From Novosphingobium barchaimii LL02 (GTDB lineage: Bacteria; Pseudomonadota; Alphaproteobacteria; Sphingomonadales; Sphingomonadaceae), in contig NZ_KQ130459.1 of the NCBI RefSeq assembly GCF_001046635.1, forward strand, positions 86,001 through 150,000: 64,000 nucleotides of DNA. Direction: 5' to 3'. Below, piece by piece: positions 7,238 to 53,284 of this stretch. Under the pieces are notes generated by a model. The model did no database searches. It was not told where the DNA came from and worked only from the letters and a program-made list of their open reading frames with translations. The first letter of the stretch is position 1. Each line of letters begins with the position of its first letter. The position numbers and the translations under genes are program-made.

Positions 7238-7702
7238 CGCTAAGGCGCGCGTCGGTGGTTGTCAATGATCGGCGTGGCTTGTGCAGGGGCGGGTAGGTCC
7301 CCGCCATGGGCTGTTTGCCGGAAATCAGGGCTCTTTGAATGCGCGGGAGGCGGAATCCGCCCGCAGCGTTCCGAATAGCAGGGCATCTTATGTGCGCGGC
7401 TTATAATACGGATTACATCACGATCTCATGCGCTGCGATTGCCGTGCGGCTGATGCAATAACTCCCTATTTTCCTCGTTTACACGGCAACTTGGTGAACA
7501 GCCATCCTGGCGCACGTCCGCCGCGTCATCGCGGTCCCGGTGAGGTCACGGCGCTGCTTTGATCTGGGTTGGGCGAATCAGGTCCTGTGCGAATAGGCGT
7601 AGCAAGCAGCGAAGCGAGGCGAGAAGGCCGGATTTTCTCGCGGTATGCCTCATGCAGCGCGACCGGCGGCACCCTTGTGCAAAATGGCGGCCATTTACGA
7701 TT

Positions 7703-7722
7703 GAATGAAAACGTCACTCATT
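7703..7722. promoter_or_regulatory. Palindromic operator-like site, copy 1
   Basis: GAATGAAAACGTCACTCATT contains the inverted arms AATGA and TCATT, nine bases apart. A near-identical site lies 119 bases downstream. The spacing and arm sequence suit a TetR-type dimer, but no regulator gene of that class is adjacent. Confidence 0.4.
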
Positions 7723-7821
7723 TGTGTTCATATAAAAAATCTCGTGAAATGATAGCGTTGAGGTCTTTCTATATGGGGGGTCGCGATGGCTGGCTTGCAA
7801 TCGCCTGCGAATCGGTCATTG

Positions 7822-7841: not shown

Positions 7842-7862
7842 CGGGCGTTCAAGGGGTTCACA

Positions 7863-7928
7863 ATGGTCTCGAAGCGTTTTGCCCTCATGGCTGGCGGCTC
7901 CAGTCTCGCGATGGATACTGCACTGTGA
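7863..7928 (+). pseudogene. Probable remnant of a secreted/receptor gene (signal peptide only)
   Basis: ATG 7863 opens a 21-codon frame MVSKRFALMAGGSSLAMDTAL then TGA. It reads like the start of a sphingomonad TonB receptor or exported protein signal peptide (basic start, then AL-A-G-S-A-LA). No beta-barrel coding follows; about 150 bases of non-coding sequence separate it from the amidase gene. I infer a deletion or decay of a receptor gene that once headed the amidase/RutA operon. The evidence is short and could be chance. Confidence 0.3.
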
Positions 7929-8075
7929 ACGCTGCCCTGCAGCCGCCCCGCGCGATTTGAGAATGGGCGGCGCGGCATCGTTCTCCTCCCGGACGCTGCG
8001 CCGCCTTCACTCCCGCCCTTCGCGAGCGCAAGCGCGAGGGGCGGGAGCATGACCCTTTCATCAGGTGAGACCGCC

Positions 8076-9467
8076 ATGCCCGACGCAGATCTGCCCACCG
8101 ACCTGTTCGACCTTGCCGAAGCCATCGCCGCAGGAGACGTCAGCGCCGAGATGGCCGTCAATGCCGCCATCGCCAAGGCGCAGACGTGGGAGCATCTGGG
8201 CGCCTTCGTCGCGATCGAGGCCGAAGCGGCGCTGGAGCAGGCGCGTGACTGCGACCGTGAACGGGCGCGCGGCAGGCTTCGCGGGTCGCTTCACGGGGTG
8301 CCGCTGGCGCACAAGGACATGTTCTTCCGCGCCGGAATACCGACCGAGGCGGGTTCGCTGATCTGGCGCGGCCATCTGCCGCGCGAAACCTCGCCGCTCG
8401 TTTCGCGGCTGGAGGCAGCGGGCGCGATCACCATCGGGCGGCTGCACATGGCCGAATTCGCTATGGGCCCCACCGGGCACAACGCGCACCTGGGGCGCTG
8501 CGGCAATCCCTGGAACGCCGAGGCTATTTCGGGCGGCTCGTCGTCGGGCTCGGGGGCTGCGGTCGGCGCGCGGATCGTCACGGGGGCGCTGGGCTCGGAT
8601 ACGGGCGGATCGGTTCGCCTGCCAGCCGCGTTCTGCGGCGTGGTGGGGCTCAAGCCCACCAACGGGCTGCTGCCGGGAACCGCGATGATGCCGCTGTCGC
8701 ACACGCTCGACACCGCCGGGCCGCTGGCCACGTCGAGCCGTTCGCTGGCCCGGCTCATGACGGTTCTTACCGCGTCGGGCCACGATTACGAGGCTGGTCT
8801 TGCCGCCGGCTGCGATGGCCTCACCATCGGCGTGCCTACCCGCTATTTCACCGAAGACCTGCACCCCGAAGTCGCCGCGGCCTTCGCCGCCGCGCGCGCG
8901 GTGTTCGAACGACTGGGCGCGAAAGTGGTCGATGTCGCCATCCCCGACCATTCGGGCTACCCGGAAATAGCGGCGCGGATATGGGCGCCCGAAGCCGCCG
9001 CCTTCCACGCCCGCCACCTTGCCGAACGTCCCCGGGATTTCGGTGAACAAGTGCGCAACCGCCTGACGGCGGGCGCTGCCGTGGCGCCGCAGGACTATCT
9101 GGCGGCGCTGGGCCGGCGAAAGTCCGCGCAGTCGGATATGCTGTCCGGCCCCTTCGCCCAGGTGGACCTCCTGTTGACACCCGCCGCGCGAATGCCGGTG
9201 CCGCTGGCCGATGAAGTCGGTGCGACAGGCGGCGCGGCGATGCAGGCGATGATCGGCGAACTGTCCGCGCTGACACGCACGATCTCGATGCTGGGTTTCC
9301 CCGCGCTGGTGACGCCTATGGGCTTCGACACGCGCGGCCTGCCACTGGCGCTGCAACTGATCGGCCCTCCGAAGGCCGAACAGTATCTGCTGTGCGGAGG
9401 TTTCGCCTACGAGCAGGCGACGGACTGGCTCGGCCGTGTACCTTCCGCTTTTCCTTCTCTCCCTTAA
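8076..9467 (+). CDS. Amidase (amidase-signature family)
   Basis: A 463-residue amidase-signature hydrolase. All catalytic elements are visible: Lys in [10 protein letters not shown], the Ser-rich loop [14 protein letters not shown] with the cis-Ser, and the nucleophile in [16 protein letters not shown] followed by VVGLKPT. Members hydrolyse amides or ureido acids such as allophanate; substrate is unknown here. ATG 8076 is preferred over 8049 because AGGTGAG at 8063-8069 is correctly spaced. The RutA-like gene follows 23 bases after the stop, so the pair probably acts in sequence on a cyclic amide: oxygenation and ring opening, then amide hydrolysis. Confidence 0.88.
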
Positions 9468-9490
9468 CCTCTCTTCCCAGGAGTAAGCCC

Positions 9491-10573
9491 ATGGATATCG
9501 GTCTGTTCATTCCCATCGGCAACAACGGTTGGCTGATCTCGGCCAATGCGCCGCAGTACAAGCCCAGCTTCGAAATGAACAAGAAGCTCGTCCAGACCGC
9601 CGAAGGCTACGGCTTCGATTTCGCGCTTTCCATGATCAAGCTGCGCGGTTTCGGCGGCAAGACGGAATTCTGGGACTACAACCTGGAAAGCTTCACGCTG
9701 ATGAGCGCGCTGGCGGCCGTGACGAGCAAGATCAAGCTGTTCGCCTCCACCGCGATCCTGACGCTGCCTCCTGCCATGGTGGCGCGCATGGCCGTGACCA
9801 TCGATTCCGTCGCACCGGGCCGCTTCGGCATCAACATCGTCACCGGCTGGGCCAAGGGTGAGTACGAGCAGATGGGTATGTGGCCGGGCGATGCCTATTT
9901 CGGCCACCGCTACGACTATGCCAGCGAATACGTGCAGGTCATGAAGGACCTGTGGACCGATGGTAAGTCCGACTTCAAGGGCGAGCACTTCCAGATGGAG
10001 GACTGCCAGCTTCTGCCCAAGCCCAGCAATGGCAAGATCGAGATCGTCGGCGCCGGCCAGTCGGCGCGCGGCATGGAGTTCGTGTCCAACTACGGCGACT
10101 ACAACTTCGTCACCGCTGGCGGCGTCAACAAGCCGACCAAGCACGCCCCCACCGTGGAGGCACTGGTCGAAGCAGCCGCCAAGACCGGACGCGACGTGGG
10201 CGCCTACATCCTGTGCATGGTCATCGCCGACGAAAGCGACGAGGCCGCGATGGCCAAGTGGCAGAGCTACCGTGAAGGCGCCGACGTCGACGCGCTGGCA
10301 TGGATGAGCGACCAGGGCGCTGCCGACAAGAATGCCGGCGCGGATTCAACTGCCCGCCACATCAACCTGCCGGAAGGCGCGGTGAACCTGGGTATCGGCA
10401 CGTTCGTCGGTTCCTACGAGACCGTCGCCAAGCTGCTCGATGAAGCCGCCTCCGTACCCGGCACCAAGGGCATCATGCTGACCTTCGACGACTTCGAGAA
10501 GGGTCTCGTCGACTTCGGCGAGAAGATCCAGCCGCTGATGGCCTGCCGCGCGGATCGCCTCGTGGCGGCCTGA
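9491..10573 (+). CDS. rutA: RutA-like pyrimidine oxygenase (flavin-dependent LLM monooxygenase)
   Basis: A 360-residue luciferase-like monooxygenase closely matching the RutA pattern: [15 protein letters not shown] near the N-terminus, [27 protein letters not shown], then the flavin-binding [16 protein letters not shown] and WPGDAYF. RutA uses FMNH2 and O2 to open the uracil ring between N3 and C4, giving ureidoacrylate peracid. No rutB-G genes are adjacent; an amidase precedes instead, so the substrate could be uracil or another cyclic amide. AGGAG at 9479-9483 precedes ATG 9491. A flavin reductase partner was not seen in the window. Confidence 0.85.
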
Positions 10574-19290: not shown

Positions 19291-19305
19291 TATCCGCCGC
19301 CCGCT

Positions 19306-38441: not shown

Positions 38442-39842
38442 TCATAGCACCGGCCACCGGCAGGGAACGGTCTTTCCGGCGCGCGCGAGGAGCGCCGGGG
38501 CGGCGGCTTCCACTTCGGCAAGGATTTGCTCCTCGTCGATGGTGGTCGCGCGGTAATTGTCTACCAGACGCCGTCCGTCGACCCAGACCGAGTGGACGCC
38601 GCGTCCGTCAGCCGACCAGACCAGCTGGTTGACCACGTTGAGCAGCGGCGTCCATTCCGGGCGCTGGCGGTCGTGAGCGACGAAGTCGGCCTTCTTGCCC
38701 GGCTCCAGGCTGCCGATCAGGTGGCTCATCCGCGCGCCGGCAGCGCCGTTCACGGTGGCGAATTCCAGCACGTCATAGGCCGAGAACAGGCTGGAATCGC
38801 GCCGCGCGTCCTTGAACAGCCCGGCGGTGACGTACATCGCGCGCATCATGTCGGCGGCGTTGCCGTTGTTGTTGCCATCCGTGCCCAGCTGGATCGGCAC
38901 CCCCGCTGCCATCATTTCCGGGAAAAGCCCCGAGTGGGTGGCCCCGTAAGCGCCCTTCATCGCCGTCATCGGGCAATGGGTTACGTGAGTGCCGGTGCTG
39001 GCGAGCAGGCCGACTTCCTCGGCATCGAGGAAGATCGCATGGGTCAGCGACAGATGATCTCCGAGCGCTTCGATGTCGGCAAGGTGGGCGATGGGCCGCT
39101 TGCCGGTCATGGCGAGGTAGAATTCGGGGTCCTGCGGGTCCGGGCTCATGTGCGCGGTGACGCCGGCGCCGTGGTCCCTGGCGAGGCTGGTGGCCGCGCG
39201 CCACAACTCGTCCGTGGCAGTGGAGTGGCCGACCAGCGCGGGCCACGCCGCCAGCAGCGGATCACCGGCGCAGGAATAGCGCTCCACCTCGCGCTGCAGG
39301 GTGTCGATGGCCTTCGCGGTCAGCGCGGCCTGGTTCTCGGCCGGATCGAAGGCGCGGTCCTGTGCCCACTGGCCGATGCGCCCGCGAATGCCGGTTTCGG
39401 CAAGGCCGTCATGGACCGCGTGAAGGTCGAGAATGGTGCCGGCCTCGACGAAGCAGGTGGTGCCGGTACGCAGCATTTCCAGCGCGGCGAAGCGGGCGGA
39501 AAGGCGCTCCTCCTCCGGCGTCTGGGCCAAGTCGATGGGGATCAGCCAGCCCATCACGTTGGTTTCCCAGTCCGCATCGTCAGGCACGGCGCCGCGCGTC
39601 AATGGCTCGCCGGTGGTGTGGACGTGGCAGTTGACGAAGCCGGGCGTGAGCACGAATCGCGAGCCGTCGATGACCTCGCGGGGGCTGACTGCGGCCTCGA
39701 TCTCGGCGGTGGGCCCTACCGCGTGGATTCGGTCGCCGATCACGGCAAGGGCGCCGTCGCGGTAGATGCGCCGCTCGGCGTCCATGGTGACGATCCACGC
39801 GCCGCGGATCAGCAGGTCGACCGGAACCGGATCACTGGGCAT
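38442..39842 (-). CDS. Amidohydrolase (AtzA/TrzA/cytosine-deaminase-like), copy 1
   Basis: A 466-residue metal-dependent deaminase or hydrolase. Metal ligands expected for this subgroup are present: His73 and His75 in GFVNCHVHT, His231 in TAHMSP, His268 in LTHAIF and Asp322 in LGTDGNNN. The start at 39842 overlaps the isochorismatase stop (TGATG). Family members deaminate or dechlorinate triazines, guanine or cytosine. About half the residues, including HMSP, TGTHVTHCP and QLVWSADGRGVHSVWVDG, are shared with the gene at 53383, showing a paralogous pair. Confidence 0.88.
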   Translation of the reverse strand: MPSDPVPVDLLIRGAWIVTMDAERRIYRDGALAVIGDRIHAVGPTAEIEAAVSPREVIDGSRFVLTPGFVNCHVHTTGEPLTRGAVPDDADWETNVMGWLIPIDLAQTPEEERLSARFAALEMLRTGTTCFVEAGTILDLHAVHDGLAETGIRGRIGQWAQDRAFDPAENQAALTAKAIDTLQREVERYSCAGDPLLAAWPALVGHSTATDELWRAATSLARDHGAGVTAHMSPDPQDPEFYLAMTGKRPIAHLADIEALGDHLSLTHAIFLDAEEVGLLASTGTHVTHCPMTAMKGAYGATHSGLFPEMMAAGVPIQLGTDGNNNGNAADMMRAMYVTAGLFKDARRDSSLFSAYDVLEFATVNGAAGARMSHLIGSLEPGKKADFVAHDRQRPEWTPLLNVVNQLVWSADGRGVHSVWVDGRRLVDNYRATTIDEEQILAEVEAAAPALLARAGKTVPCRWPVL

Positions 39843-40480
39843 CACGCCGACCATGCCGCCACCACAGCGTCGGTCGTCACCAGCAGCGAGGTATGTTCGT
39901 TGAGCGCGGTCAGAGTGTGGACGTGCAGCGCCTCGTCGAAGCTGGCGCAGGCGTCGGACACCACGAAGGTATGGAAATCGCGGTGGAAGGCGTCGCGCGT
40001 AGTGGAATCGACGCAGCAGTCGGTTGTGAGGCCGGTCATCACCAGCGTGTCGATCCCGCGCGCGCGCAGTTGTTCCTCGAAATCGGTGCCGTGGAAGCTG
40101 GAATAGGCCAGCTTGCTCACCTCGATGTCGCCCGGCTCGGGGGCGACGCGGTAATAGTCCTCGCCGCCGCTGCCAATGCGGCAGATGCCCTCGCTGCCCG
40201 GCGTGCCGCGGCGGGTCATCCAGGTTTTCAGCGCATTGGAATCGGTTTCGGGCCGGGTCATCACGCGCATGAAGCCTACCGTGGCCCCGGCCTTGCGCGC
40301 GGCGATGATGAGGGCCTCGATCCTGTCGATCGCCGCTTCGGCGGGGGACATGTCGGTGCCGTAGCGGCCGATCAGCCCCTCGGGAGAGGCGAAGTCCACC
40401 TGCACGTCGACTACGATCAGGGCGGTGCGCTGCGGGGCGATCATCTCGCCCGGCTGGGCGACGTGGGGTAGATCAGCCAT
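39842..40480 (-). CDS. Isochorismatase-like cysteine hydrolase (RutB-like)
   Basis: A 212-residue hydrolase with a full triad: Asp25 in VVDVQVDF, Lys123 in SKLAYSSF, and Cys156 in TDCCVDSTTRDAF. Relatives include RutB (ureidoacrylate amidohydrolase), biuret hydrolase and N-carbamoylsarcosine amidase. It overlaps the upstream RutA-like gene by eight bases and the downstream amidohydrolase by one, indicating coupled translation. In this context it would hydrolyse the ureide or amide released by the monooxygenase. Confidence 0.9.
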   Translation of the reverse strand: MADLPHVAQPGEMIAPQRTALIVVDVQVDFASPEGLIGRYGTDMSPAEAAIDRIEALIIAARKAGATVGFMRVMTRPETDSNALKTWMTRRGTPGSEGICRIGSGGEDYYRVAPEPGDIEVSKLAYSSFHGTDFEEQLRARGIDTLVMTGLTTDCCVDSTTRDAFHRDFHTFVVSDACASFDEALHVHTLTALNEHTSLLVTTDAVVAAWSA

Positions 40481-41609
40481 TCGTGGTCTCCACTGCCGCC
40501 ATCTGCGCGGGGAAGCGCTCGCGCAGCACCGGCAGCACCTTCTCGCCGAAGACCGGCAACGATGCGTGATAGTCGGGGAAGATCAGCATCAGCCCGTCGA
40601 GCGAGGTTTTCTCGAAGATCGCACTCAGCCGTTCGATCACCGTTTCGGGCGTGCCAAGCACATGCGGGGTCATGAAGGTGGAGCGGGCCTTCTGGGTAAA
40701 GGCGTTTTCCTTGCCGATCTCGCTATCGAGAAAGCCGTAAGCGCGCATCATGCCGTGCAGGGCGCCTTCGTCGAACCCGGCGCGAAAGTGCGCGGCGGTT
40801 TCCTCGGCTTGCGCGTCGGTCTCGCCGAAGACCACGGTCATCATCGAATATGTGCGGATCTTCGCGCCGAGCGCGGCGGCGCCGGCCTTGGCATCGGCGC
40901 TGGCCTTGGCCAGTTCCTCGACGTTGCCGCCCGATAGGAACAGGGCGTCCATTTCATTGGCGGTGAACTCGATCCCGACTTTTGACGTGCCGGCGCAGAC
41001 CAGGAACGGCGGGCTGGCGGGCTTGGGGTCGGAAATGCAGTCGTCGAGGGTGAAATACTTGCCGTGGCTGGTGACCGACGGCTGGGTCCACAGTGCCTTG
41101 ATGGCCTGTATCCATTCGGTGGCGAGGACGTAGCGTTCGTCGTGGTCAACGCCTTCGGGCCATGCGCCCATCTGCGAAAATTCGCCCTTGTAGGCGCCGG
41201 TCACGACGTTGAGCCCGGCGCGGCCGTGGCTGATCTGGTCAAGCGTGGCGATCATCTTGGCGGTGACGGCGGGGTTCTGCAGGATCGTATGGACCGTGGC
41301 CCAGACCTTCACACGGCTGGTCGCCTGCGCAAGACCCGCCATCATCATCGGCGAATCCAGACTGGCGCGCCAGTGCTCGGTCTCGCCGCCATAGCCCCGG
41401 TATTTCGCCATCGCCATGATGAAGTCCAGACCGATATCCTCGGCCAGCTTCGCGGCTTTCAGGTTGTAGTCGTAGGAGCCGTCGAGCGTGGGGGCGTTCT
41501 TCGAGAGGATCCAGCCGCCGTTCGCCATCGGCATGAAAATGCCGAGGTCCCGCCCGCCGGTGTCGGACGGCAGGCCGAATGTTGCCGGTCTCGGTTGGCT
41601 CGTGCTCAT
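40473..41609 (-). CDS. RutA-like LLM flavin-dependent monooxygenase (second, divergent copy)
   Basis: A 378-residue luciferase-like monooxygenase. The layout matches RutA and SsuD-type enzymes: DLGIFMPMANGGWILS, IMAMAKYRGYGGETEHW, and LNVVTGAYKGEFSQMGAWPEG. Compared with the gene at 9491, GNNGWLIS has become ANGGWILS and the active-site loop differs, so substrate probably differs. AGGGGAG precedes ATG 41609. It leads a four-gene operon with a RutB-like hydrolase, an amidohydrolase and an MFS carrier, and is divergent from an SDR gene. Confidence 0.88.
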   Translation of the reverse strand: MSTSQPRPATFGLPSDTGGRDLGIFMPMANGGWILSKNAPTLDGSYDYNLKAAKLAEDIGLDFIMAMAKYRGYGGETEHWRASLDSPMMMAGLAQATSRVKVWATVHTILQNPAVTAKMIATLDQISHGRAGLNVVTGAYKGEFSQMGAWPEGVDHDERYVLATEWIQAIKALWTQPSVTSHGKYFTLDDCISDPKPASPPFLVCAGTSKVGIEFTANEMDALFLSGGNVEELAKASADAKAGAAALGAKIRTYSMMTVVFGETDAQAEETAAHFRAGFDEGALHGMMRAYGFLDSEIGKENAFTQKARSTFMTPHVLGTPETVIERLSAIFEKTSLDGLMLIFPDYHASLPVFGEKVLPVLRERFPAQMAAVETTNG

Positions 41610-41789
41610 GTGGCTCCCCTGAATAGCCGCGTCGTTGCTGGGTGGAGGCTAGAATGGGGTGTGCGCGCGATCTTGTCACCCTGCGCCCGCGCTCTTGTCG
41701 TATGGTCAAGATGCCGGGCGCGGGCGGTAAAGATGTGGCGGGGCAGGGCGCGGTAGGCCACACCGCATCAGGCACGAGGGAGATCGAAC

Positions 41790-42812: not shown

Positions 42813-45140
42813 TCAGGATGAGAACAGGCTTTTCCTGATAACCGCGTGCACGCCCCAGTTGCCGTTCGCCACCTGGCTGATCCCGAAGTCCACACCCACC
42901 GACAGCAGCGAGATCGCCTCGTCCTCGGTGAAATCGCGCAAGGTCATCAGGAACCGGCGGGCCTTGCGGAACGCATCGCGCATGGCGGCGTCGATGGAGC
43001 TTTGCTTGTAGACTTCGCTCTGCGCGCTGGCGCCGAGTTCCTTGAGGTAATCGGGGTGGGAGAAGCCCAGGATCACCCATTCGTCGGGCGTCTCGATCAT
43101 CGGATAGTCGATGCCGCGGATGTATTTGCGGCTGGTCTTGGCCGGGTGAAGAATAACCTGGATCACCGCCGTCATCGAACATTCGATGGCGGTGCCGCAC
43201 AGTTCGCTATCGCCCTGGCTGGCGTGGGGATCACCCATCGACAGCAGCCCGCCCGGCACGCCCACGGGAAGAAAGCAGCTGGCGCCCTTGCCCAGCCGCC
43301 AGTTGTCGATGTTGCCGCCGAAGTTGGCGGGCGGAACGGAGTCTATCAGTTCAGAATGGGCCGGGGCCAGCGCGATCACGCCGAAGTGCGGGCGCACCGG
43401 GATCGTCACGTCGCGCAGGACATCGAAGTTGCGGGTGATCGTCTCTGGATCTACCGGGACGCCGGGATAGTCGTAGCGATCGTGGACCACGCCCGAAGGG
43501 TCGGTCTGCGGGGTCCAGCGATAGGAGTACACCGCCTGCGCCGTGGCCCGGCCGGGTTCGTCGTCCATTTCGTAGATGGTGATGACCTCGCGGTCCTTGG
43601 GTTCGGTCAGCAGGTCCTTATAGTGAAAGCCCCAGTACGCGGCGACGTTGCTGCCGAACGAGCGGCCCGCGAAGCGCGGGTTCTGGCTGGGGCGGGCTTC
43701 CATGTCGAGGATGCGTACTTCGATCACGTCGCCGGGGCGAGCGCCCTCCACCGCGATCGGGCCGGTGCAGATATGCACGCCGAACCCCTCGCCGGGGCCG
43801 CGACCCAAGGCAGATGCGTCGAATGGACCGGCACCGCGGCGTTCAACCGCCTTGCCCTCGGCGGTCCAGTGGAACACCGCTTCGGCGCCCGCATCGCCCT
43901 CGATCATACGCTCGGCATCGTCGTTGGCGTGGTGGGTGAGGGTTTCGATGGTGACATAGTCGCCCGAGCGCACTTCCAGCGCCGGGCTTAGCGAGCGGCT
44001 GAAATAGCCCCAGTGAATGGTATCGGGCCGGGCGGGCAGGAAATGGTGACGGCGGGTGCGCGCTGCGTCGTCCAGCGCGGGCAGGGCATCCGCGCCGGGC
44101 AGTACGCCTTCGAGTACGCTCGCGGGCTCGCGGTTTTCCAGCCGCACGTCGCGGGCCTTTTCCGGGCGGCCGCGCCGGGGTGCTTCGGCGGATGTGCCCA
44201 CGGATTCGGGTGACTTGCGATATTCGCGCGGGCTCATCCCGTACTGCTCGCGAAAGGCGCGGGAGAACGAGGCGCTGTCGTTGAAGCCCCACTGGAACAG
44301 GATTTCCGAAATCGAACGCTGCGCGTGCAACGGGCTGCCAAGGTCCAGCCGGCAGCGTTCCAGCCTGCGCAGTTTGACGTAGTGGCCGAAACTTTCGCCG
44401 TGCTGCTCGAACAGCTTTTGCAGATAGCGCGGCGAGATATTGTGCTCCGACGCGATCTGGTGGGTGTTCAAATTGGGGTCGGAGAGGCGCATCTCGATCG
44501 ACTGGAACACCCGCTCCAGGATCGCGGCGCGTCCGCCCGCCGCGCCGCCCAGCGCCTTGGCGGGCGCGCGGTCCAGCAGGGTGGCGGCGATCATCTCGGG
44601 CAGGGCCAGTTCGACCGGGCGGATCTGGTCGTCCGAAATGTCGAGAATGGTGTCGGCGACGGTGCGCAGCAGGCTGGACATCATGCGGCCAACGGCAGTG
44701 TCGGCGATGAGGTCGCTGATCTGTGTCGGCAGCTGCGAGCGCGATTTGAGCGCCGGCAGGCTGTGCGGCACCTTGACGATGAGCAGTCGGAAATCGCCCT
44801 CGGCGGTGATCCGGCAGCGGGTGTCGCCGCCGCCGTAAACCATGTCGCCCTCGCCGATCTCGACCACCGCATCGCCGCTGGTGGCGGTAAGGCGGCCTTC
44901 CAGCAGGAGGACGAGCCAGAAACAGCGCGCCTCCTGCCGGAAATCCAGGGTCAGCGCCTGCGCCGTGCCGGTGCAGCGGATGAACTGAATCTTCTGGCCG
45001 CTGGTGAAGCTGACGAGGTCTCCGTAGATGTCCTCGTCGCCGCCATCCAGTTCGAGGCTGACGCGCTGCAGTGCAAAACGCCAGGCTTCCAGGCGCTGGT
45101 CGTGCGGATAGGCATTGGTCGTCAATCGCACGCCGGTCAT
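42813..45140 (-). CDS. Fusion of AraC-family regulator and FmdA-type acetamidase/formamidase
   Basis: A 775-residue single frame without interruption. Residues ~15-195 form an AraC-type sensing domain. Residues ~206-310 carry a complete AraC DNA-binding domain (IASEHNISPRYLQKLFEQHG and GFNDSASFSRAFREQYGMSPREYR). A ~55-residue basic, Pro-rich linker follows. Residues ~366-770 are an FmdA_AmdA acetamidase/formamidase domain with DTIHWGYF, GDVIEVRILD, GGNIDNW, SMGDPHASQGDSELCGTAIEC. A free-standing FmdA paralogue is at 47347. ATG 45140 has AAGGG ten bases upstream. The protein could bind DNA and hydrolyse, or only sense, an amide such as formamide. It follows the Rieske gene in the same direction. 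Confidence 0.85.
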   Translation of the reverse strand: MTGVRLTTNAYPHDQRLEAWRFALQRVSLELDGGDEDIYGDLVSFTSGQKIQFIRCTGTAQALTLDFRQEARCFWLVLLLEGRLTATSGDAVVEIGEGDMVYGGGDTRCRITAEGDFRLLIVKVPHSLPALKSRSQLPTQISDLIADTAVGRMMSSLLRTVADTILDISDDQIRPVELALPEMIAATLLDRAPAKALGGAAGGRAAILERVFQSIEMRLSDPNLNTHQIASEHNISPRYLQKLFEQHGESFGHYVKLRRLERCRLDLGSPLHAQRSISEILFQWGFNDSASFSRAFREQYGMSPREYRKSPESVGTSAEAPRRGRPEKARDVRLENREPASVLEGVLPGADALPALDDAARTRRHHFLPARPDTIHWGYFSRSLSPALEVRSGDYVTIETLTHHANDDAERMIEGDAGAEAVFHWTAEGKAVERRGAGPFDASALGRGPGEGFGVHICTGPIAVEGARPGDVIEVRILDMEARPSQNPRFAGRSFGSNVAAYWGFHYKDLLTEPKDREVITIYEMDDEPGRATAQAVYSYRWTPQTDPSGVVHDRYDYPGVPVDPETITRNFDVLRDVTIPVRPHFGVIALAPAHSELIDSVPPANFGGNIDNWRLGKGASCFLPVGVPGGLLSMGDPHASQGDSELCGTAIECSMTAVIQVILHPAKTSRKYIRGIDYPMIETPDEWVILGFSHPDYLKELGASAQSEVYKQSSIDAAMRDAFRKARRFLMTLRDFTEDEAISLLSVGVDFGISQVANGNWGVHAVIRKSLFSS

Positions 45141-45178: not shown

Positions 45179-46387
45179 CTAGTCGATCGTCCCGGCACCG
45201 GCCAGACGCTTGTGTGCATTGCGGTAACGGTGGACCAGCCACTTGTTGAACTGGCCTTGCGCGCCCTCCTGCCACGAATAGCGGCCGCGCGGTGCGAAGC
45301 GCGAACGCAGGCCTTCCTGCACCAGTCCGTCGACATGCATGTCCTGGGCGATGATCTTGCCCGAGGCGGAAAGGTTCATGTCGAGCAGGTTGTCGAAATT
45401 GGGCTCGGCCATGGCGCCCGGCGCGAACAGGAAGCCGGTTTCCAGTTCGTGCGATTCCGGGCCGTCCGGGCGCAGGATGAGGTAGATCACCATGTCGCTC
45501 ATCATCACCAGCGACAGCGAGGGCGGGACGTTAGCGAAGGTCATGCGGCTGCGGCCCTCGTCGGTCAGGCCGGGGAATACCGGCAGCACCGCGCGCTGGG
45601 TGGCGTTGAAGCTGGCGTCGGGATGCAGAGTGCCGTTGAAGCGCAGGAACCCGGCGTCCTCAGGCTCGGAATGCGGGAATTCCGCGCGGCCCGAGGGCAC
45701 GAAGTCATGCAGCGGCCCGGCATGCAGGCGGCTGGCGTGATAGCCGTCGTTGTTGTTCTCGAACATGACCTTCCAGTTCCACGGCAACTTGGCCGCAGGG
45801 TCCGGGCGCGGCCCCTCGGCGCTGGCGAGGTCGTACCCGGAGATCGCGTCCGCGACTTTGGCAAGGCGAGGGCCGAGCGGGGCGGCGTTCAGGTCGAAGT
45901 TGACGAAGATGAAGCCGTTCCAGATTTCGACGGCAAAGCGTGGCAGGCCGTTTTCCTTGCGGTCGAAATTGCAGGTCTTGTTCATGGCCGGGGCGGCCAC
46001 CAGCGCGCCGTCGAGCGAGTAGCTCCAGTGGTGGTACGGGCACAGGAACCCGCGCGCCTTGCCCGCCCCTTCGGCAACCAGCATCGCGCGGTGCTGGCAC
46101 ACCGCCGACATCGCGTTGATCTCTCCGGCAAGGTTGCGCGCGACGATGATCGGCTCATTCACGGTGCGGGTGGTGAAAAACTCGCCTGGCTCCCCGATCC
46201 ACGATTCGCGCCCCACGCACTGCCACTCGTTGAAGTAGAGCGCCTCCTTCTCGAACTCGTAGAAGTCGGTGCCGGTGTAGCATTCGGGCGGCAGCGTCAC
46301 CGCATCGGCAAGGTCGATCGCCGAGGCGGAGAGGGACTCGATGAAGCTGTCTGACATCAAAGGGGCGTGCATCGTTGGCGCGGACAT
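45179..46387 (-). CDS. Rieske non-heme iron oxygenase, alpha subunit
   Basis: A 402-residue ring-hydroxylating oxygenase component. The Rieske cluster ligands are Cys97, His99, Cys116 and His119 in CQHR and CPYHHWSY. The mononuclear iron site shows Asp214, His217 and His222 in NNNDGYHASRLH, with the distal acidic motif in IIAQDMHVDGLVQEG. It could hydroxylate or N/O-dealkylate an aromatic or amine substrate. No ferredoxin or reductase gene is adjacent, so electrons must come from elsewhere. AGGGAAG precedes ATG 46387. It lies 38 bases upstream of the AraC-FmdA fusion gene and behind the VOC gene. Confidence 0.9.
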   Translation of the reverse strand: MSAPTMHAPLMSDSFIESLSASAIDLADAVTLPPECYTGTDFYEFEKEALYFNEWQCVGRESWIGEPGEFFTTRTVNEPIIVARNLAGEINAMSAVCQHRAMLVAEGAGKARGFLCPYHHWSYSLDGALVAAPAMNKTCNFDRKENGLPRFAVEIWNGFIFVNFDLNAAPLGPRLAKVADAISGYDLASAEGPRPDPAAKLPWNWKVMFENNNDGYHASRLHAGPLHDFVPSGRAEFPHSEPEDAGFLRFNGTLHPDASFNATQRAVLPVFPGLTDEGRSRMTFANVPPSLSLVMMSDMVIYLILRPDGPESHELETGFLFAPGAMAEPNFDNLLDMNLSASGKIIAQDMHVDGLVQEGLRSRFAPRGRYSWQEGAQGQFNKWLVHRYRNAHKRLAGAGTID

Positions 46388-46507: not shown

Positions 46508-46993
46508 TTATTCGCGGGTGTAGTCGTCCGGGATCCTGGGCGGATCGCCGGCTTTGCCCCAAAGCAGGATCTCGTTACCCCAAGGGTCGCGAAAAGCGTG
46601 GTTCAGGCCGTTGAACGTGCCCCAGAAATGGTTGCGCCACAGCACCGTGGCGCCGCGCTCCTCGGCGGCGGCAAGGATGCGCTCAGGCGTGTCGTCGTCG
46701 CTGATGAGCACCCAGATGCGCGGCTTGCGGCCCTCGGCCGAGATAGCGCGCGGGTCGACGCCCGCGTCGTTGGGATGCGGGCGGGCATTGGCGGGATCGA
46801 AGATGCCGACGTGCAAGTTGCCGATCTCGCTGTCGCTGCCGTCGGGGTTGGGGAACATGCCGCCCGGCACCATGCGGTGATAGACGCCTTCCGGCTTGTG
46901 ATCGTCGCGCCAGCCGAAGACTTCGGCGTAGAAACGGCCCGCGGCGGCGGGATCGTCGGCAGGCAGGTCTACGAAGATGAGCGTGTTGGGCAT
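46508..46993 (-). CDS. VOC-superfamily (glyoxalase-like) protein
   Basis: A 161-residue VOC protein of two beta-alpha-beta-beta-beta units: IFVDLPADDPAAAGRFYAEVFGW at the start and the second half RIWVLISDDDTPERILAAAEERGA with HAFRDPWGNEILLW at the end. Such proteins are metal-dependent lyases, isomerases or ring-cleavage dioxygenases, or binding proteins. ATG 46993 has AAGGAA upstream; ATG 47014 has no ribosome site. It probably heads the transcript with the Rieske oxygenase and the fusion gene. Confidence 0.8.
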   Translation of the reverse strand: MPNTLIFVDLPADDPAAAGRFYAEVFGWRDDHKPEGVYHRMVPGGMFPNPDGSDSEIGNLHVGIFDPANARPHPNDAGVDPRAISAEGRKPRIWVLISDDDTPERILAAAEERGATVLWRNHFWGTFNGLNHAFRDPWGNEILLWGKAGDPPRIPDDYTRE

Positions 46994-47092
46994 GGGCGTG
47001 TTCCTTGCGGTCATGATGACGGAGGGTGTGCGCCAATCGGGCGCGGCGCTCTTGGCGGCAGGCGTCCGGTTTGTTGATGTTGGCGCTTGGGG

Positions 47093-47227
47093 GCTTCGAC
47101 AAGCTCAGCCTTGACCCTTCGACAAGCTCAGGGTGAGCGGAGGTCGCTCTATACTTTCAACGCCGCTCGGGGTGTGCGGAAGTTGTTCTATACCTTCAAC
47201 CCCGCTCAGGCTGAGCTTGTCGAAGCC
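47093..47227. repeat. REP-like inverted repeats in the VOC/FmdA gap
   Basis: Three related words: GCTTCGACAAGCTCAGCC (47093-47110), CCCTTCGACAAGCTCAGGGT (from 47115), and the inverted CTCAGGCTGAGCTTGTCGAAG (from 47204). They can fold into a long imperfect hairpin. They fill most of the 353-base divergent gap between the VOC gene and FmdA. Confidence 0.7.
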
Positions 47228-47346
47228 CTCCGCGGATGCACCAACTACCGCCGTCGCCAACTCGGAGGGCGCGCACGGCCAAGACCCTTTCGCGCATCCC
47301 CGCGAAGCTGAGACCCTAGATCCTCCATCCAGCAAAGGGGCAATGC

Positions 47347-48453
47347 ATGGCTTCGGTCACCACTTTCGGTTCGGCGAAGGCGCAGGTTCGGCCTTCGGCG
47401 ATCTGGCATCTCAAGGCCACGCCGGAGACCATCCACTGGGGCTACTTCTCGCCCGATATCAAGCCGGCGCTGCGCATCAGAAGCGGCGACCTCGTCCATG
47501 CCGAGGCCGTGACCCACCATGCCGGCGACGATGCCAGCCTGATGTTCGACGAGGGCATCGAGCGCATCTTCCGCGAGGTGGACCCCGCCAGCCGCGCGCC
47601 CGGCTGCCACATCATGACCGGCCCGATCTACATCGAGGATGCCGAGCCGGGCGACATGATCGAGGTGCGCTACCTGCAGATGGTGCCCCGCTGCAATTAT
47701 GGCTCCAACCTCGCCGCCAACTGGGGGCATCTGTATGAGGAGTTCGGCAAGCAGGAGCGGGTGACGATCTACGAACTCGATCCCAATGCCAATACCGCCC
47801 ACGCGCTCTACGCCTACGATTTTCCCGGCGACTATACGGTGCCCGGCACGATCACCAATTGCCCGGAATGCGACCGTCACCCGGCGCTGCCCGGCATCAC
47901 CATCCCGGCCCGCCCGCATCTGGGCACGGCGGGCGTGGCGCCTGCGGTGAACGCGCCGGTCTCGACCATCCCGCCGGGCCTGCATGGCGGGAACATCGAC
48001 AACTGGCGCATCGGTGCCGGTTCGACGATGTTCTACAAGTGCCAGGTCAAGGGCGGACTGTTCTCGATCGGTGATCCGCATGTCAGCCAGGGCGACGGCG
48101 AAATCAGCGGCACCGCGATCGAGGCCTCGCTCGACTGCCTGTTCCAGATCATCCTGCGCAAGGACTTCGACTTCCCCTCACCGCTGCTGGAAACGCCGGA
48201 GAACTGGATCGTCCACGGCTTCGGCGCGGACCTCGACGAGGCGATGAAGAACTGTTCGCTGGATATGATCCACCTGCTCCACGAGAAGCAGGGACTGAGC
48301 CGGAACGACGCCTATTCGCTGATGAGCGTGGCGGCGGACTTCGGCATTACCCAGGTCGTGGACGGCACGCTGGGCGTCCACGCACGCATCGAGCGCCGGA
48401 TGTTCCCCGCCAAGGGCACGGTCGTCGATCCCGTCAAGCTCGATCCCGAGTAA
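47347..48453 (+). CDS. Acetamidase/formamidase (FmdA family), free-standing
   Basis: A 368-residue FmdA_AmdA hydrolase. It has ETIHWGYFSPD, GDMIEVRYLQM, NCPECDRHP, HGGNIDNWRIG and FSIGDPHVSQGDGEISGTAIEASL, the same blocks as in the fusion protein at 42813. It hydrolyses a small amide, releasing ammonia and a carboxylate. AAAGGGG precedes ATG 47347. It is a single gene closed by an intrinsic terminator, and is divergent from the VOC-Rieske-fusion operon; it may be a target of the AraC-FmdA protein. Confidence 0.9.
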   Translation: MASVTTFGSAKAQVRPSAIWHLKATPETIHWGYFSPDIKPALRIRSGDLVHAEAVTHHAGDDASLMFDEGIERIFREVDPASRAPGCHIMTGPIYIEDAEPGDMIEVRYLQMVPRCNYGSNLAANWGHLYEEFGKQERVTIYELDPNANTAHALYAYDFPGDYTVPGTITNCPECDRHPALPGITIPARPHLGTAGVAPAVNAPVSTIPPGLHGGNIDNWRIGAGSTMFYKCQVKGGLFSIGDPHVSQGDGEISGTAIEASLDCLFQIILRKDFDFPSPLLETPENWIVHGFGADLDEAMKNCSLDMIHLLHEKQGLSRNDAYSLMSVAADFGITQVVDGTLGVHARIERRMFPAKGTVVDPVKLDPE

Positions 48454-50650: not shown

Positions 50651-51502
50651 ATGAATGTTCAAACAGCCGATATGGCGGCCTCGAAGGCAACTTCAGGCAC
50701 TCAGATGCCCACCTTCTTCATCCCCCATGGCGGCGGGCCGTGCTTCTTCATGGACTGGACGGCGATGGGCGGTCCCGCCGACACCTGGCACAAGACCGAG
50801 GCGTGGCTGCGTGCGCTCGTCTCCACCTTGCCGGAAAAGCCCAAGGGCATCGTCGTGATCTCGGGCCACTGGGAGGAGCCGGCCTTCACCGCCTCCGCCG
50901 CCGTCGAGCCGGGCATGATCTACGACTATTACGGCTTTCCGCCCCATACTTATGAGCTGAAGTACCCCGCGCCCGGCGCGCCCGGACTGGCGGAGCGCGT
51001 GGTGTCCCTGCTGAGCGAAGCGGGCCTCCCGGCGCGTACCGATGCCGCGCGCGGGTTCGACCACGGTGTATTCGTGCCGTTCCTGCTGATCGACCCCGAA
51101 GCCTCGATCCCGGTCGTGCCGCTTTCGCTGAAAGCGGACCTCGATCCGGCCGAGCACATCGCCGCAGGCCGCGCGCTGGCGCCCCTGCGCGAGGAGGGTA
51201 TCCTCGTAGTCGGCTCGGGCATGAGCTACCACAACATGCGCGGCTTTCGCACACCCGCGGCAACGCGGCCCTCTGCCGTGTTCGATCAGTGGCTGACCGG
51301 CGCCGTCGAATCAGCGCCGCCGGAACGCGAAGCCAACCTGACCGCATGGGCCGATGCGCCGGCGGGCCGCCTCTCGCACCCGCGCGAGGAGCATCTGCTG
51401 CCGCTGATGGTGGCAGCCGGGGCCGGCGCGGATTCGCCGGGCGCCAAGGTGTTCGGCGACAACGTGATGATGGCCGATATTTCCGCCTATCGCTTCGGCT
51501 GA
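50651..51502 (+). CDS. Class III extradiol dioxygenase (LigB/DODA-like)
   Basis: A 283-residue member of the LigB superfamily, DODA/YgiD branch. Conserved metal-site residues are visible: His in FFIPHGGGPCFF, His in VVISGHWEE, the FDHGVFVPFLLI block, VGSGMSYHNMR and SHPREEHLLPL. Such enzymes use Zn or Fe to cleave catechol-like rings (for example 4,5-DOPA) or act on related dihydroxy compounds. AAGGGA lies 11 bases before ATG 50651. It starts a plus-strand set with AtzG/AtzE-like, amidohydrolase and TfdA genes. Confidence 0.87.
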   Translation: MNVQTADMAASKATSGTQMPTFFIPHGGGPCFFMDWTAMGGPADTWHKTEAWLRALVSTLPEKPKGIVVISGHWEEPAFTASAAVEPGMIYDYYGFPPHTYELKYPAPGAPGLAERVVSLLSEAGLPARTDAARGFDHGVFVPFLLIDPEASIPVVPLSLKADLDPAEHIAAGRALAPLREEGILVVGSGMSYHNMRGFRTPAATRPSAVFDQWLTGAVESAPPEREANLTAWADAPAGRLSHPREEHLLPLMVAAGAGADSPGAKVFGDNVMMADISAYRFG

Positions 51503-53207: not shown

Positions 53208-53284
53208 GACCCTTCGTCAGGCTCAGGGTGAGCGGAAGTTGCTCTATGCTTCCCATTCCGCTCAGGCTGAGCTTGTCGAAGCCC
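53208..53284. repeat. REP-like inverted repeat
   Basis: GACCCTTCGTCAGGCTCAGG (from 53208) and the inverted CTCAGGCTGAGCTTGTCGAAG (from 53260) are the same words as at 47.1 kb, with AGCGGAAGTTGCTCTAT shared between. Lies between the AtzE-like and amidohydrolase genes. Confidence 0.7.

Follow-up and report, generated by a model that had tools for sequence, protein, structure and literature searches.

The 64-kb stretch of Novosphingobium barchaimii LL02 DNA analysed here (the window) carries a minus-strand gene that encodes an AraC-type regulator and a whole FmdA acetamidase/formamidase domain in a single frame. With a probability of about 0.57, we read its product as a one-component activator of the AraC family that regulates its own expression along with an amide-yielding catabolic regulon, and in which the whole FmdA amidase serves as a built-in sensor. 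The computed features behind this reading are the fusion itself, its conservation, the single clade formed by fused FmdA domains, their retained polar residues, the frequent presence of a free-standing FmdA and a shared operator-like site; from these we infer DNA binding by the fusion protein, activation, amide sensing and any catalysis. The frame runs from 45140 to 42813, begins with ATG and contains no internal stop codon. Its parts are as follows:

42813..45140, minus strand: AraC-FmdA fusion gene, 775 amino acids, identified by its open frame, Pfam matches, 42 full-length relatives and a predicted model
44643..45056, minus strand: AraC_binding_2-like N-terminal domain (N-domain), residues 29-166
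44211..44525, minus strand: AraC-type DNA-binding domain, residues 206-310, with HTH_18 and HTH_AraC past their cut-offs
44058..44204, minus strand: disordered linker, residues 313-361
44163..44177, minus strand: RRGRP, residues 322-326, whose RGxP is conserved in an otherwise variable linker
42816..44054, minus strand: FmdA (acetamidase/formamidase) domain, residues 363-775
43299..43319, minus strand: GGNIDNW block, residues 608-614
43203..43235, minus strand: GDPHASQGDSE block, residues 636-646

Pfam profiles identify both halves of the protein. AraC_binding_2 covers residues 29-166 (28 bits, cut-off 27), and in a fold search, of which the AraC and FmdA rows were used, the N-domain resembles ligand-binding AraC domains. 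HTH_18 (residues 230-309; 74.3 bits, cut-off 33.6) and HTH_AraC (residues 272-309; 48.3 bits, cut-off 26.6) mark the two-helix-turn-helix DNA-binding domain that places the protein in the AraC family. The C-terminal half belongs to FmdA_AmdA (PF03069) by profile match (104.9 bits, cut-off 27, strongest over residues 601-757) and by fold, with the free FmdA of PDB entry 3b9t aligning to residues 359-773 (E 9.5e-177). In the predicted model, the AraC-like and FmdA parts are separated by the linker, which has a predicted local distance difference test score (pLDDT) below 50, as do residues 437-453 and 502-506. The linker comprises about 50 residues in the window protein; among relatives its sequence drifts and its length stays within 43-58 residues. 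Within it, RGxP is present in 43/43 rows (42 loci plus the window) and in all eight plasmid fusions (L044-L051), taking the form RRGRP in 32 of the 43 rows and RGLP or RGWP in rhizobial and burkholderial fusions. RGRP resembles the core of an AT-hook; this reading of RRGRP was set aside, as the variable position may be R, S, L or W.

An earlier note, made from the sequence of the window alone, had proposed the single-frame fusion, and the 775-residue frame, its Pfam domains and its relatives bear this out: in a single pattern-based scan of a genome collection, 42 of 43 related loci carry the same fusion in one frame, the remaining locus (L043) encoding the AraC protein alone. The 42 relatives measure 766-781 amino acids from the start of the match, have a best-segment identity of 62-99%, and derive from Novosphingobium, Sphingomonas, Sphingobium, Erythrobacteraceae, Hyphomonas, Asticcacaulis, Caulobacter and some unassigned bins. 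One of them (L007) lies on a 6-kb contig labelled Actinobacteria, is 81% identical and is probably mis-binned. Among 1731 plasmid records with a match, 15 cover at least 80% of the query, and plasmid fusions occur in Novosphingobium, Caballeronia, Paraburkholderia, Variovorax, Rhizobium, Neorhizobium, Sinorhizobium and an unclassified member of the Hyphomicrobiales. The note's word 'rare' calls for qualification. Across Pseudomonadota, 8 of 398 sampled genomes carry the fusion (counting the sample centre, G001, and a match in G197 that begins at residue 67). In the genus sample of 149 genomes, 30 match the AraC half at E 1e-60 or better; the frames measure 777-886 amino acids, long enough for the fusion, and were counted by AraC half and length, not by the FmdA part. 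In Rhizobium johnstonii TP60 (L051, 7289-9698), a 'hypothetical protein' at 7289-7810 is followed by a shorter gene for the DNA-binding domain and FmdA at 7860-9698, an arrangement that may reflect either a true split of the gene or an error in the sequence.

Phylogenies of the two halves differ. Fused FmdA domains form one clade relative to all free ones, with a Shimodaira-Hasegawa-like approximate likelihood ratio test (SH-aLRT) value of 99 in a tree with 58 fused rows, and with 99/99 and 100% of 200 bootstrap trees in the 48-row tree. In the AraC tree, the fused rows do not form one clade and three changes are needed; unfused paralogues and the unfused protein of G352 are placed among them with weak node support (90/54). 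The solitary AraC half of L043 (a Sphingobium metagenome-assembled genome, 5992-6957) is nested in the alphaproteobacterial fused group of that tree, and a whole-genome search found no FmdA match in its genome, which suggests secondary loss of FmdA. A second, independent fusion was suspected in Sinorhizobium and Rhizobium etli, whose fused domain matched the long free FmdA better, and was found unsupported, these rows being placed inside the fused clade. Likewise, a 752-amino-acid frame in L071, considered as another fusion type, is read instead as an open frame that precedes a free FmdA whose start resembles a twin-arginine translocation (Tat) signal. Judged from these sequences, the fusion is old and is found in many soil and water bacteria.

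To judge the FmdA half, we took as a reference 36 positions that three distant members have in common with 53 free FmdA rows, a single exception among the latter being allowed. Of these positions, 27 are invariant in 58/58 fused rows. They include all acidic residues and histidines that are conserved (H456, D471, D612, D637, H639, E653 and E683), together with T459, N610, Q756 and structural glycines and prolines. Within the GGNIDNW block, G608, G609, N610, D612 and W614 are invariant in every fused row, as are D637, H639, D644 and E646 of the GDPHASQGDSE block, with Q642 kept in 57. Rarer changes at reference positions are G630 to E in eight rows, G470 to N in four, and P386, V628 and Q642 in one row each; the Sinorhizobium and R. 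etli fusions, on a long branch, are also altered at G496, G643, A651 and G692, and the G092 fusion carries D394A. The window protein departs from the reference at four non-polar positions (G590, L656, F660 and V758), its conserved polar residues being intact. Among 11 close relatives, the DNA-binding domain has the lowest median ratio of nonsynonymous to synonymous substitution rates (dN/dS), 0.044, followed by fused FmdA with 0.088, the N-domain with 0.206 and the linker with 0.287. The corresponding value for the free short FmdA is 0.106 (10 of those genomes), so the FmdA half evolves under enzyme-like constraint, and nine other cluster genes, with mechanically called starts, range from 0.109 to 0.229.

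A free-standing FmdA accompanies the fusion in the window and almost everywhere else:

47347..48453, plus strand: free-standing short FmdA, 368 amino acids, about 38% identical to the fused domain

As the earlier note had observed, fused and free copies share the GGNIDNW and GDPHxSQGDxE blocks, the free copy in the window having GGNIDNW and GDPHVSQGDGE. A free FmdA lies within the fetched stretch for 29 of 42 fusion loci and turned up in each of 12 further fusion genomes by whole-genome search, giving 41 of 42 alphaproteobacterial loci or genomes in all; the remaining contig, L007, is too short to tell. The partner may be up to about 37 kb away (L034) or on another contig (L032). Among rhizobial and burkholderial loci, 19 of 21 have a free FmdA within the 18-kb stretch (exceptions L048 and L091). 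The partners are of different kinds. Sphingomonad-type clusters pair the fusion with a short FmdA, about 38% identical, and rhizobia and Burkholderiales with a long FmdA that accompanies an ABC importer and often RidA, is of similar length to the window's fused domain and is 55-59% identical to it (five compared). Sinorhizobium, R. etli 8C-3 and G197 instead have a long partner FmdA from the clade with Tat-like N-termini.

A 22-bp direct repeat, first noticed in transporter promoters of rhizobial loci, links these clusters; aligning the regions upstream of FmdA genes revealed no clear footprint. When all loci and the window are taken together, GACAA-N17-GACAA is found 21 times, some of these copies coming from one genome or species. 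The other 39 spacings (5-44) average 1.8 occurrences and reach at most 8. A weight matrix built from 17 exact repeats finds, at score 12, 55 non-seed matches in 42 loci and the window, of which 37 are intergenic, where intergenic DNA makes up 17.6% of the sequence. At score 11, with one Markov shuffle per locus as control, group A (44 sources) yields 79 matches, seeds included, against 11 in the shuffle, group B 13 against 3, and 23 other loci 0 against 0; L094, one of these 23, has a site by the later pattern. That pattern, CAA-N6-GKRYG-N8-CAAG, with one CAA-box per half-site, was counted in promoters with enough sequence, where 0 to 0.03 matches per family are expected. It is found before 14 of 19 LigB, 13 of 16 RutA-like (LLM), 11 of 30 FmdA and 5 of 7 TonB genes, and less often before VOC (4/26), MFSb (3/18), RibK (2/12), Rieske (1/22) and COest (1/8) genes. 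Amidohydrolase (0/15), cluster-13 (0/10), FdR (0/8), 2OG (0/6) and AraC18 (0/6) promoters have none. The exact GACAA repeat occurs in the SBF promoters of L022, L027 and L042, a looser pattern is present in 10 of 14 rhizobial and burkholderial SBP promoters (not L044, L045, L047 or L099; 0.005 loci expected), and L045 has a site before its short FmdA.

On sequence grounds, these sites are candidate operators of the AraC type, which is a tandem direct repeat spaced by roughly two turns of the helix and lying beside the -35 region. In 35 of 103 sequence-distinct matches, the proximal box begins 26 or 27 bp from a TAnnnT, other offsets from 15 to 39 giving 0-3. Docking of an activator next to the -35 region is familiar AraC biology, and the spacing would fit an activator bound there. 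Among the genus-level genomes, eight of the 39 exact extended matches have a GGGCGC middle, all within 5 kb of a fusion-type gene on the same contig. In the window, the pattern is matched three times against 0.03 expected, an expectation that is not a blind test because the comparative pattern was partly shaped on sites of the window and its relatives:

41672..41697, minus strand: operator candidate 1, upstream of the RutA-like gene, with GACAA-N17-GACAA at 41699-41673
41646..41651, minus strand: TAGCCT, -10-like, 26 bp from the proximal box start, one of the two distances that stand out in the count over loci
47051..47076, minus strand: operator candidate 2, upstream of the VOC-Rieske-fusion genes
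47258..47283, plus strand: operator candidate 3, upstream of the free FmdA gene

Because these matches lie upstream of the free FmdA, Rieske and RutA-like units, inside the very gaps that the earlier note had singled out, its suggestion that the fusion protein controls them is probable as far as sequence can indicate. In the window alone, GACAA-N17-GACAA with one mismatch allowed occurs once against 1.49 expected, which is not significant. A different repeated element, CTTCGACAAGCTCAGNNTGAGC, has five copies in the window where none is expected (47117-47138, 47204-47225 and 53260-53281, and with two mismatches at 19303 and 53212). Two of its copies lie in opposite orientation between operator candidates 2 and 3 and contain GACAAG, so they might be taken for half-sites.

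In the mechanism that we propose, three transcription units would be controlled: the RutA-like operon, the VOC-Rieske-fusion operon and the free FmdA gene. At each, the DNA-binding domain would dock on a 22-bp direct repeat that lies beside the -35 region or slightly upstream of it. FmdA would bind a short amide, either a pathway intermediate or an imported substrate, the simplest candidate ligand being the amide hydrolysed by the free-standing FmdA partner. Occupancy or turnover in FmdA would then be relayed through the flexible linker and shift the regulator's state, and an active domain would in addition switch the signal off by hydrolysing the amide.

Several observations weigh against such an activator with FmdA as its amide sensor. 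Firstly, the counts overstate independent events, many rows being close kin. Secondly, the site is unevenly distributed: the pattern is absent directly upstream of the fusion gene (0/41) and from SDR (0/18), isochorismatase (0/21), MFSa (0/24), TauD (0/15) and SBF (0/17) promoters, and a strict site is absent from L044, L048, L097-L101 and L043. TAnnnT at the fixed distance is missing in 68 of the 103 matches, window sites 2 and 3 included. At the genus level (149 genomes), the exact extended pattern is matched 39 times, in 33 genomes, against 26 matches for a reversed control, and the exact extended site with a GGGCGC middle is found in only 8 of 30 fusion-type genomes, leaving 22 without it. 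The FmdA domain is also not needed for a site to exist, because the unfused AraC cluster of G352 has the same kind of site before its Rieske gene; the site seems to belong to the AraC subfamily, with or without FmdA. Thirdly, nine reference positions vary, commonly as G590A (49/58), L656M (51/58), F660I (44/58) and V758A (26/58), and because of these four changes the FmdA pocket may differ. Low dN/dS in FmdA could reflect metabolism, and the N-domain may be the sensor. Finally, formamide as substrate is a guess, because both FmdA proteins fall far below the cut-off of the NCBIfam formamidase profile NF045496 (fused 69.3 and free 60.7 bits, cut-off 500).

How far the fused domain still works as an enzyme separates two variants of the sensor reading, each less likely than not. 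In one, the FmdA domain would be a binding-only sensor whose turnover is lost or slowed, much as MocR-type regulators use an enzyme fold for binding without normal turnover. Fusion-specific changes point this way (Y624L in 48/48 fused rows where 49/49 free rows have Y or F, F633L in 47/48, and H403 to Q in 21/48), as do the four common substitutions above, which affect positions common to free and distant FmdA. Against it, the conserved acidic residues, histidines and asparagine are invariant in 58/58 rows, and leucine at 624 also occurs in distant members. In the other, possible to a similar degree, the protein would be a substrate-destroying sensor: a competent amidase within an AraC activator that binds the inducer and ends the signal by hydrolysis, with one old fusion kept across alpha- and betaproteobacteria as partner enzyme and pathway were exchanged (a Rieske/RutA-like cluster, an ABC importer with RidA, or a Tat-type-clade FmdA).

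A rather unlikely alternative to amide sensing by FmdA is a bifunctional protein without cross-talk, in which the AraC half senses through its own cupin-like domain and FmdA is an extra metabolic amidase fused for co-expression. The intact polar residues of FmdA, the ligand-binding-like fold of the N-domain and the existence of the AraC subfamily without FmdA (the unfused paralogues of cluster 18 and G352, beside the pathway) would all suit it, but a free FmdA is nearly always present, so that a further copy for metabolism would seem superfluous. Of the folded parts, the N-domain is moreover the least constrained (0.206), though that of unfused paralogues is also less conserved (37% against 59% for the DNA-binding domain), so a fast N-domain does not by itself imply that sensing has moved to FmdA. 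Less probable still is a role of FmdA as an oligomerisation or docking module that co-assembles with free FmdA and lets the regulator read the state or amount of the enzyme. The frequent pairing of the two, and the similar length and 55-59% identity of the rhizobial and burkholderial partners, favour it; the partners come from different clades (short, long and Tat-like), which argues against one conserved contact. A sequencing or assembly artefact joining two genes can be dismissed, the same junction recurring in dozens of independent genomes with a linker of steady length and drifting sequence, and the frameshift that the earlier note had allowed for in the linker is excluded in practice by the one-frame fusion in 42 of 43 loci.

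Around the fusion lie these genes:

45179..46387, minus strand: Rieske oxygenase alpha subunit (Pfam), 38 bp upstream of the fusion gene
46508..47014, minus strand: VOC/glyoxalase-like gene (Pfam)
40473..41609, minus strand: RutA-like luciferase-like monooxygenase (254.7 bits, short of the 498.3 required for RutA)
39842..40480, minus strand: isochorismatase-family hydrolase, RutB/BiuH-like, under both cut-offs
38442..39854, minus strand: amidohydrolase of TRZ/ATZ type, under the cut-offs of the families shown
50651..51502, plus strand: 4,5-DOPA-dioxygenase-like (LigB-type) gene (141.9 bits, cut-off 233)

From strand and spacing, the VOC gene is the probable first gene of a VOC-Rieske-fusion operon. 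An SDR, two MFS-type transporters and an AtzE-type amidase (473.7 bits, cut-off 461) are also nearby. Over the 43 loci and the window (n=44), mechanical gene calls show recurring Rieske (27), VOC (26), MFS (25), RutA-like (23), isochorismatase (21) and LigB (20) families, a composition that would fit an oxidative pathway releasing a short amide; a literature search for the pathway substrate yielded nothing useful. Six loci (L022, L025, L029, L031, L034 and L042) contain a second, unfused AraC of the same subfamily (cluster 18), often adjoining the short FmdA, and because such loci also bear the fusion, two related regulators may share the operator. In L094 (5530-9657; G352), Rieske, LigB, short FmdA and unfused AraC genes stand in one row.

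We found no paper in the open-access literature describing an AraC protein fused to formamidase/FmdA or acetamidase; in PMC13296017, fmdA and araC are mentioned apart. Database records name such fusions by one half, as amidase or as AraC regulator. Since the proteins are already in databases under these half-names, the novelty lies in recognising the fusion family, its single FmdA clade and its probable regulon, and the family may help to annotate them. The usual sensor of AraC regulators is a small cupin-like domain. The fusion offers a natural setting in which to ask whether turnover, or only the pocket, is the signal: with metabolism covered by the free copy, the sensor could be mutated alone. 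The predicted operator would provide a ready reporter and links catabolic clusters in sphingomonads, rhizobia and Burkholderiales.

Known systems share single features with the fusion. AmiC/AmiR of acetamidase operons and FmdB of fmd operons, as PMC13209695 presents them, resemble it in controlling amide use beside an amidase and an amide transporter, but sensor, regulator and enzyme are described there as separate genes; PMC10781810 similarly describes FmdA-AmdA formamidases and a formamide-inducible fmdCABDEF cluster with a putative separate regulator. Free FmdA_AmdA structures, namely 3b9t (Methylobacillus), 2wkn (a Delftia gamma-lactamase treated in PMC4602302), 2f4l and 3tkk, share the fold and conserved blocks but have no regulator attached, and 3b9t is named a twin-arginine signal protein. 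On the regulator side, the closest NCBIfam profile is FeaR (NF007243), at 131.6 bits below its cut-off of 199. To our knowledge, neither FeaR nor other AraC_binding_2 regulators carry an enzyme domain. Ada, which joins an AraC-type helix-turn-helix to a methyltransferase, MocR/PdxR/GabR, BirA and GlxA-type AraC proteins are alike in using an enzyme fold as the signal input of a regulator, and we know of no FmdA domain in any of them; the NCBIfam Ada profile gives the fusion 19 bits of 345, over residues 208-314 only. PutA, a proline dehydrogenase with a DNA-binding domain, is a trigger enzyme built from another DNA-binding fold and another enzyme, whereas in the fusion the regulator is of the AraC type and a free copy of the enzyme is encoded nearby. 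The likeness lies in the double role: according to PMC9132996, PutA binds promoter DNA to regulate genes and senses substrate and cofactors, and the fusion would, as proposed, likewise be a catabolic enzyme doubling as a DNA-binding regulator.

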